Shown: piece after piece, positions 3,073 through 5,077 of the stretch
How positions within the stretch are numbered: position 1 is the first letter of the stretch
How the letters are laid out: every line of letters begins with the position of its first letter
Assembly (NCBI GenBank): GCA_022729705.1
Contig: DZAX01000007.1
Location: forward strand, 24,409-88,408
Length of the DNA: 64,000 nucleotides
DNA from: Helicobacter cetorum
GTDB lineage: Bacteria > Campylobacterota > Campylobacteria > Campylobacterales > UBA6016
Reading direction: 5' to 3'
Translations under genes and position numbers: made by a program
The notes under the pieces: model-generated
What the model saw: only the letters and a program-made list of their open reading frames with translations
Told to the model about the DNA's origin: nothing
Database searches by the model: none

Positions 3073-3117
3073 TTGGTATACTCTCTCATAAATACACATT
3101 ATCATCAGGATTACAAT

Positions 3118-3846
3118 ATGAGTCAAATAAAAATGATAGACCCACATACCGAAGAGTTCCAGTCGGAGCTCAAAAAGACTATAGATTTTACCGACAAAGT
3201 AATAAAACAGTTCGGCTTTGTATATAACCCCGATATGGAGATTACACAAAGCATACAGTTTGGTCTTACTAGAAATAAGTTGATTTATGACAAAAGATAC
3301 TGCCCCTGTTTTTTTGTGACAGGCGATAAACAAGAGGATAGGGTATGTCCGTGTAAGCCCGCTATCGAAAACGAAATTCCATCAGAGGGGCTTTGTCATT
3401 GCGGGATATTTTGTACGCCTGAGTTTGCTGCGACAAAAGCGATGGAAGAGAGCTTGGAAGAGGCTGTGCATCAACACTCAAGAGGGCTTAAAAAAGAGGA
3501 GTGCGAGCTTCTACTTGCAAAAGCTCAAATGGACAGCGAAGAGCTGGAGGCTTTACTCGAAGCAAGAACGCTTGGAATGGTAAGCTTTAAGCTTGTGGAC
3601 GTAAGAGAGTGGATGGAGTACAAAAACTTTAGAATAAGAGGCGTGGACTTCTTGGTTCCGACGACAAGCTTTTATGACTCCGTAAAAGAGTTAAACGAGT
3701 TTAAAAATGAAACTATCATAGTCTATTGCCATGTTGGCTCAAGAAGCGCTTATTGTCAAAAGACTCTAAAAGATTTGGGCTTTAAAAAAGTATCTAATTT
3801 ACAAAGAGGAATAGTAAGCTACCGAGGCGAACTGGATAAAGGCTAG
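3118..3846 (+). CDS. Ferredoxin:thioredoxin reductase catalytic-domain protein fused to rhodanese
   Basis: Residues about 50-105 carry CPC (62-64), CPC (77-79) and CHC (93-95), the cysteine set that in FTR beta subunits holds a [4Fe-4S] cluster and the redox-active disulfide. The C-terminal half (about 150-242) is a rhodanese domain: VDVREWMEY, then active-site C204 in YCHVGSRS and the LQRGIVSY end typical of single-domain rhodaneses. The fusion could link ferredoxin-derived electrons with persulfide sulfur. The start is the ATG at 3118 with an AGGA 7 bp upstream; the frame is open upstream to 3073 but that part overlaps the divergent gene. It precedes rarA by 4 bp. The physiological partner is not shown by the sequence. 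Confidence 0.88.
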   Translation: MSQIKMIDPHTEEFQSELKKTIDFTDKVIKQFGFVYNPDMEITQSIQFGLTRNKLIYDKRYCPCFFVTGDKQEDRVCPCKPAIENEIPSEGLCHCGIFCTPEFAATKAMEESLEEAVHQHSRGLKKEECELLLAKAQMDSEELEALLEARTLGMVSFKLVDVREWMEYKNFRIRGVDFLVPTTSFYDSVKELNEFKNETIIVYCHVGSRSAYCQKTLKDLGFKKVSNLQRGIVSYRGELDKG

Positions 3847-3850
3847 TATT

Positions 3851-5077
3851 TTGAGTTTGGCTCAAATACTTCGCCCCTCCTCTTTGGAGGATTTTTTGGG
3901 GCAAAAACATCTGCTTGGCGCCGAGGCTCCTTTTTTGCGGCTTGTCGAGGCGGGTTCTATTCCGCACTCTTTTTTCTTCGGTCCTCCCGGAACCGGCAAA
4001 ACATCTCTCGCTCGTATTATCGCCGCAAAGTTGGAGGCTAATTTTTTTGAGTTTAACGCCACAAGCGTAAAGATAGACGACATAAGAAAAGCCGTAGACG
4101 CAAACAAAAACTCTTTTACAAAACCGCTGATTTTTATAGACGAAGTGCATAGGCTCTCAAAAACACAGCAAGAGGTGTTGCTTCCGATTATGGAGAATAA
4201 GTTTGCGCTTATAATCGGCGCCTCTACAGAAAACCCGTTTTTTTCGCTAACAGGCGGTATTCGCTCGCGTTCTATGCTGTTTGAGTTTTTTTCGCTAACG
4301 GATGATGATTTGAGGAAGGCTCTTGCAAAAGGGTTGCAATCGCTTGGCAAAGAGGCGGACGAGGATGCGGCGGAGTATCTCGTGCACTCTTCATCGGGCG
4401 ACGCAAGAGCTATGCTAACTTTGCTGGAGTTTGCCGCAAAGCTCGAAGATAGGATTACGCTAGACATCCTCAAAAAACTTAGACCACAAGCCTTGACGGA
4501 TGGAGCAGGGGAGTCTGAGACGCATTACAATCTCGCAAGCGCTCTTATCAAAAGCGTAAGAGGCTCCGATGAAAACGCCGCCGTGTATTATCTGGCGCGT
4601 CTTCTTGCTGGAGGTGAGGAGCCTCGATTTGTCGCACGCCGTCTAGCCATACTTGCCGCCGAAGACATAGGCAACGCAAATCCAAACGCCCTGCAACTAG
4701 CGAACGCCGCTTTTTCGTTGGTAGAAAAGATAGGTATGCCGGAATCCAGAATTATCCTCTCGCAACTGACGATATATCTAGCTTGCTGCCCAAAATCAAA
4801 CTCCGCTTATACAGCGATAGACGATGCCTTGGCTTTGGTGGAGAGCGGCGAAATACAGCCGGTGCCGCCACATCTTAAAGACGCACATTTTGCCGGAGCA
4901 AAAACTCTTGGAAGAGGGGTGGGCTACAAGTACCCGCACGATTTTGGCGGCTGGGCGGAGCAACAATATACGCAAAAACCGCTTGATATAGTAAAGCTAA
5001 AAGATATTGGGTTTGAAAAGACGCTAAAAGAGTGGCTAGGGAAGATAAGAGTCCGCCTTACAAACTATCCCGTATAG
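3851..5077 (+). CDS. rarA: Replication-associated recombination protein A (RarA/MgsA AAA+ ATPase)
   Basis: AAA+ clamp-loader-like ATPase acting at stalled forks. Walker A is GPPGTGKT (44-51), Walker B is LIFIDEVH (93-100), sensor 1 lies in IGASTENPFF, followed by the MgsA C-terminal tetramerisation part (AEDIGNANP, YKYPHDFGGW). The length (408 aa) is a little short at the N-terminus but matches the usual start of the AAA core. The best start is TTG at 3851, just after the previous stop, giving SLAQILRPSSLEDFLGQ; this frame stays open further upstream but only inside the preceding gene. Probably co-transcribed with the FTR-rhodanese gene. Confidence 0.95.
   Translation: MSLAQILRPSSLEDFLGQKHLLGAEAPFLRLVEAGSIPHSFFFGPPGTGKTSLARIIAAKLEANFFEFNATSVKIDDIRKAVDANKNSFTKPLIFIDEVHRLSKTQQEVLLPIMENKFALIIGASTENPFFSLTGGIRSRSMLFEFFSLTDDDLRKALAKGLQSLGKEADEDAAEYLVHSSSGDARAMLTLLEFAAKLEDRITLDILKKLRPQALTDGAGESETHYNLASALIKSVRGSDENAAVYYLARLLAGGEEPRFVARRLAILAAEDIGNANPNALQLANAAFSLVEKIGMPESRIILSQLTIYLACCPKSNSAYTAIDDALALVESGEIQPVPPHLKDAHFAGAKTLGRGVGYKYPHDFGGWAEQQYTQKPLDIVKLKDIGFEKTLKEWLGKIRVRLTNYPV

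Follow-up and report, generated by a model that had tools for sequence, protein, structure and literature searches.

A conserved fusion of an FTR catalytic domain with a rhodanese in Campylobacterota, and its possible role as a ferredoxin-dependent persulfide reductase

Introduction

What task would bring the catalytic domain of a ferredoxin:thioredoxin reductase (FTR; FTRc domain) and a rhodanese together in one polypeptide? The question is raised by a single gene in a stretch of 64,000 nucleotides from contig DZAX01000007.1 of Helicobacter cetorum, referred to here as the window. An earlier note had read this gene as an FTR catalytic domain fused to a rhodanese, and had proposed that the protein may pass electrons from ferredoxin to persulfide or thioredoxin-like carriers in sulfur metabolism. 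Our literature search found no study describing an FTRc-rhodanese fusion.

Gene and domain organization

The gene runs on the forward strand from an ATG at 3118 to a TAG stop at 3844-3846 (3118-3846, open reading frame list and sequence) and encodes 242 amino acids. The proposed fusion is borne out by two Pfam matches, FeThRed_B (PF02943) over residues 17-117 (E 3.2e-31, 108 bits against a cut-off of 22) and Rhodanese (PF00581) over residues 141-236 (E 2.1e-14, 54 bits against a cut-off of 22), and C204 lies in the rhodanese part of the sequence, as had been claimed. The two-part gene product is real and conserved, and its architecture is secure. The features of the locus are as follows.

3107..3110 (+), Shine-Dalgarno-like AGGA, 7 nt upstream of the ATG (sequence)
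3118..3846 (+), FTRc-rhodanese fusion gene (open reading frame, Pfam)
3166..3468 (+), catalytic FTR domain of the ferredoxin:disulfide reductase (FDR) type, residues 17-117 (PF02943; PDB 4tpu, 7pwe, 1dj7)
3301..3309 (+), first CPC, with C62 a predicted cluster ligand and C64 predicted to be redox-active (invariant 81/81; plant-type FTR homology)
3346..3354 (+), second CPC, with C77 and C79 predicted cluster ligands (invariant 81/81)
3394..3402 (+), CHC, with C93 a predicted cluster ligand, H94, and C95 predicted to be redox-active (invariant 81/81)
3412..3414 (+), C99, invariant as a seventh cysteine and absent from 1dj7, 4tpu and 7pwe (alignments)
3469..3537 (+), linker with a conserved HSRG at residues 120-123 (each residue at least 99% conserved)
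3538..3825 (+), rhodanese domain, residues 141-236 (PF00581; Foldseek)
3727..3744 (+), rhodanese active-site loop C204-H-V-G-S-R209 (C204, G207 and R209 invariant 81/81)
3851..5077 (+), RarA/MgsA-type AAA+ ATPase, 4 nt downstream of the fusion (open reading frame list, Pfam; kept in the two nearest relatives)

Following homology with plant-type FTR, we take C62, C77, C79 and C93 to be the residues that hold the predicted cluster, and C64/C95 to be the predicted redox pair.

The AlphaFold model of the fusion has a mean pLDDT of 92, with its weakest block at residues 111-120 (69), and a pTM of 0.58. Both domains are well formed in the model, while their mutual placement is unsure, because the pTM is 0.58 despite the high pLDDT. 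In a Foldseek search with this model the FTR half matched 7pwe, 4tpu and 1dj7 with a probability of 1.00, and the rhodanese half matched numerous rhodaneses, among them the one in the NADH-dependent persulfide reductase Npsr (3nta).

Two other classifications were considered and rejected. PADLOC gave no defence-gene match for the fusion. Among NCBIfam models, the one that comes nearest to the FTR domain is the FtrB double-selenoprotein family (NF041072), for which the score of 66 bits is far below the cut-off of 160 bits; unlike members of that family the fusion has cysteines and no selenocysteine, and its open reading frame contains no in-frame TGA. TGA-bearing standalone FTRc genes in genomes G238 and G219 were likewise rejected as selenoproteins and are ordinary genes, the match extending beyond the stop.

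Conservation and cysteine spacing

The homologues are the best 80 of 343 relatives in a scan of the genome collection, and almost all of them bear the label Campylobacterota. Identity to the query is mostly 55-60% among the 81 fusion proteins, in all of which the six FTR cysteines, H94, C99, D161, R163, C204, G207, R209 and S210 are invariant. The rhodanese part thus has both its DVR motif, with D161 and R163, and its C-x-x-G-x-R loop. Since 43 columns are invariant over the 51 rows of the alignment, the pattern is no chance match, and the invariance of the six FTR cysteines, C99 and C204-x-x-G-x-R in 81 sequences argues that neither active site is decaying. C99 lies four residues past the presumed redox-active C95. 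It also occurs in standalone FTRc of Campylobacterota and is absent from divergent copies in G061 and G191. These divergent copies make up a second FTRc type (L087:1710-2360, reverse strand, and L088:1911-2600, forward strand; reading frames of 217-230 amino acids) with the pattern CPC-X14-CPC-X12-CHC and a different C-terminal part.

The cysteine pattern of the fusion is CPC-X12-CPC-X13-CHC, a count that proved correct when repeated, as did the X16/X8 attributed to plant and cyanobacterial FTR, which is found in the PDB alignment of 1dj7. The use of this spacing as a distinguishing argument did not survive the comparison. The first gap measures 11, 12, 17 or 18 residues among the 80 homologues (best 80 of 343 relatives) and only the second is constant, at 13, so that the exact spacing is undiagnostic and was rejected as a signature. 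The solved FDRs 4tpu and 7pwe both read X14/X12 in the PDB alignment, so that non-plant spacing is usual outside the photosynthetic FTR. Judged from these alignments, the departure from plant spacing groups the FTR domain with the FDRs and is not unusual in itself.

Relation to known enzymes

The PF02943 match, the six cysteines in a CPC/CPC/C[HY]C arrangement and the FTRc fold of the model place the protein among FDR/FTR catalytic domains. A plant-type heterodimeric FTR would have X16/X8 in place of X12/X13 and an FTRv partner. The earlier note had pointed to the lack of a variable subunit nearby, and this now extends to the whole source genome, in which a PF02941 search found no FTRv while the control cyanobacterium Synechococcus was positive. 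The catalytic chain of plant and cyanobacterial FTR (1dj7, 2pu9) shares the fold, the six cysteines and the CHC histidine with the fusion, and differs in its spacing, its FTRv partner and its unfused state.

The solved structures 4tpu and 7pwe provide a precedent for FDRs with fused domains. The FDR of Methanosarcina acetivorans (4tpu) has the FTRc fold, two CPC motifs with a C-x-C, non-plant spacing and an additional domain C-terminal to the FTR domain; in contrast to the present fusion, this domain is a rubredoxin and not a rhodanese, the third motif is CYC instead of CHC, and C99 is absent. The glutaredoxin-FDR of Desulfotalea psychrophila (7pwe) likewise joins FTRc to a thiol-handling domain, but the glutaredoxin is N-terminal to the FTR domain, and the protein again has CYC and no C99. 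The class that suits the fusion best is that of the FDRs, with the rhodanese as partner domain.

The other relevant design is that of Npsr (3nta, 6pfz), in which sulfur is taken up by the cysteine of a rhodanese attached C-terminally to a disulfide reductase. Npsr depends on FAD, CoA and NADH and its reductase domain is unrelated, and FeThRed_B and Rhodanese are the only matches above the Pfam cut-off in the fusion, with no Npsr-type FAD/NADH reductase domain found there. Homology is therefore limited to the rhodanese, and the likeness is otherwise an analogy of design.

Distribution and genomic context

We sampled 249 Campylobacteria genomes from across the class, of which 77 have FTRc and 66 have the fusion; the source genome has this fusion as its only FTRc copy. 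Families f2 and f3, which are probably host-associated, make up most of the sample, and FTRc is almost absent from them (one standalone copy, in G167). By our reading of the family labels, only seven genomes outside these two families have no FTRc. Named carriers among the best 80 of 343 relatives include Sulfurimonas, Sulfuricurvum, Sulfurovum, Nitratifractor, Malaciobacter and Poseidonibacter, and the fusion is widespread in free-living relatives within the Campylobacterota.

The neighbours in the window are a trpB-like gene, a YgjP-like metallopeptidase and the RarA-type ATPase (Pfam), with no sulfur genes near the fusion in the window. Sulfurimonas-type loci have the order argG, fusion, rplI, hslV, hslU, era, and loci in other lineages have different housekeeping neighbours (both by sequence reading). 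A conserved operon was rejected, as the neighbours are housekeeping genes whose order is local to lineages.

More informative are the relatives in which the two domains are encoded separately. An FTRc gene with a rhodanese gene beside it, in the order of the fused domains, occurs in G219, G221, G204 and G225 (family f4) and in G224 (family f5), where the two reading frames overlap by 8 nt, and on the Sulfurovum mangrovi plasmid NZ_CP087125, where they are named separately in the record. G219, G221 and G225 have the fusion in addition to the separate pair, family f5 has a standalone FTRc immediately before the fusion, and the remaining standalone FTRc genes have no adjoining rhodanese. Since the partners are fused in some lineages and adjacent as separate genes in others, a working partnership of the domains is well supported. 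The separate-gene rows involve three label changes on the FTRc tree, most branches of which are weakly supported, and a single origin would be compatible with it.

Some of these loci have other features. Within a few genes of the S. mangrovi pair are those for a thioredoxin-family protein and an NrfD/PsrC-type subunit, which may be coincidence. Two family f5 clusters (L086:2619-6302 and L098:2433-5394) have the order FTRc, FTRc-rhodanese or rhodanese, then a DUF7897 protein, and lie near a P-II gene (P-II in L098; by sequence in L085); ahead of the DUF7897 protein, L086 additionally has two small proteins that match nothing in Pfam and a further rhodanese. The viral contig IMGVR_UViG_3300005430_001001, which has an apparent DNA ligase gene, also carries a standalone FTRc (L102:4989-5312) whose CHCGIFC motif is of the Campylobacterota type. 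This FTRc groups with a Nitratifractor copy on a long branch of the FTRc tree and is possibly a phage-carried redox gene.

Proposed function

We propose, at slightly less than even confidence, that the protein joins a single-domain rhodanese to an FDR, in other words to an FTR catalytic domain that works without FTRv, and acts as a ferredoxin-dependent persulfide reductase. In NADH persulfide reductase the C-terminal rhodanese cysteine is the initial sulfur acceptor and passes sulfur to the disulfide reductase centre (PMC7969121), and the same design with an FDR replacing the flavoprotein would give such an enzyme. C204 of the rhodanese would take sulfane sulfur from thiosulfate, polysulfide or a low-molecular-weight persulfide to form a persulfide. 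The C64/C95 dithiol of the FTR domain would attack this persulfide, releasing sulfide and leaving a C64-C95 disulfide, which ferredoxin would re-reduce with two single electrons passed by way of a [4Fe-4S] cluster that has C62, C77, C79 and C93 as its ligands. The contact between C204 and C64/C95 is hypothetical, given the unsure domain placement in the model (pTM 0.58). The cluster, the ferredoxin donor, the persulfide substrate and the direction are features that we infer for the fusion; reading frames of 90-111 amino acids with Fer4 in the source genome are possible ferredoxins. The flow of electrons from ferredoxin to persulfide that had been suggested earlier is consistent with the fusion itself, the intact active sites, the lack of FTRv and the adjacent gene pairs, and we infer it as the most economical mechanism. 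The reading is weakened by the lack, in most lineages, of a neighbour gene that indicates sulfur metabolism, and sulfur taken up by the rhodanese may be donated instead of being presented for reduction.

Donation of sulfur is central to one alternative, in which the FTR domain serves only thiol maintenance, using ferredoxin to re-reduce the rhodanese cysteine when this is oxidized or trapped in a disulfide, and an acceptor such as an enzyme of tRNA thiolation or cofactor synthesis receives sulfur from the rhodanese. The housekeeping neighbours and the fully conserved rhodanese loop would suit this, as would a putative TtcA-like gene (cluster c35, by sequence reading) at a distance of 3-4 genes in three loci of the Sulfurovum type, but most lineages have no linked acceptor gene and a dedicated ferredoxin reductase serving one carrier would be unusual, so that we regard it as improbable. 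Somewhat less improbable, though still unlikely, is a general FDR-type reductase of thioredoxin- or glutaredoxin-like disulfides, with the rhodanese as a docking or regulatory domain and no catalytic partner. The Methanosarcina FDR reduces a thioredoxin (PMC6262447), and standalone FTRc without a rhodanese in several relatives implies that FTRc has a role of its own; against this, the invariant C-x-x-G-x-R loop would be needless in a domain used only for docking. A TrxB-like protein is moreover present in all 249 genomes, leaving no obvious need for ferredoxin-driven reduction of thioredoxin.

A dedicated, Sox-linked part in thiosulfate or sulfide oxidation, moving electrons between sulfur carriers and ferredoxin, appears very improbable. 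The expected co-occurrence with sulfur oxidation genes is found in one direction: all 39 SoxB genomes (38 above the cut-off and one truncated match) carry FTRc, and SoxB occurs in none of the 172 FTRc-negative genomes. In the other direction it fails, as 38 of the 77 FTRc genomes have no SoxB. Six SoxB genomes have no fusion. No SoxB was found in the source genome, which does have FTRc, and the protein was rejected as a Sox component on these grounds; the loci examined show no linkage to sox genes. The correlation of SoxB with FTRc is itself confounded with lineage, because nearly all FTRc-negative genomes belong to two families. Together with the housekeeping neighbours, these observations leave the link to sulfur oxidation weak.

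Returning to the persulfide reductase, its cellular role would be cytosolic, using ferredoxin in the management of reactive sulfur in free-living Campylobacterota. A more specific form of the proposal, which we hold as doubtful, is an iron-sulfur persulfide reductase for protein or small-molecule persulfides, conserved across these bacteria and driven by low-potential electrons, with C99 as a third thiol in the sulfur relay.

Significance

Solved structures already exist for FDRs fused to rubredoxin and to glutaredoxin, and the new part is the rhodanese as partner. Being a single gene that is present in cultured Sulfurimonas, Malaciobacter and Poseidonibacter, the fusion is directly testable. 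If the proposal is true, the enzyme would be an iron-sulfur counterpart of the flavin-based persulfide reductases, and the reduction of persulfides with ferredoxin would tie central low-potential metabolism to the control of reactive sulfur in sulfur bacteria of vents and sediments.
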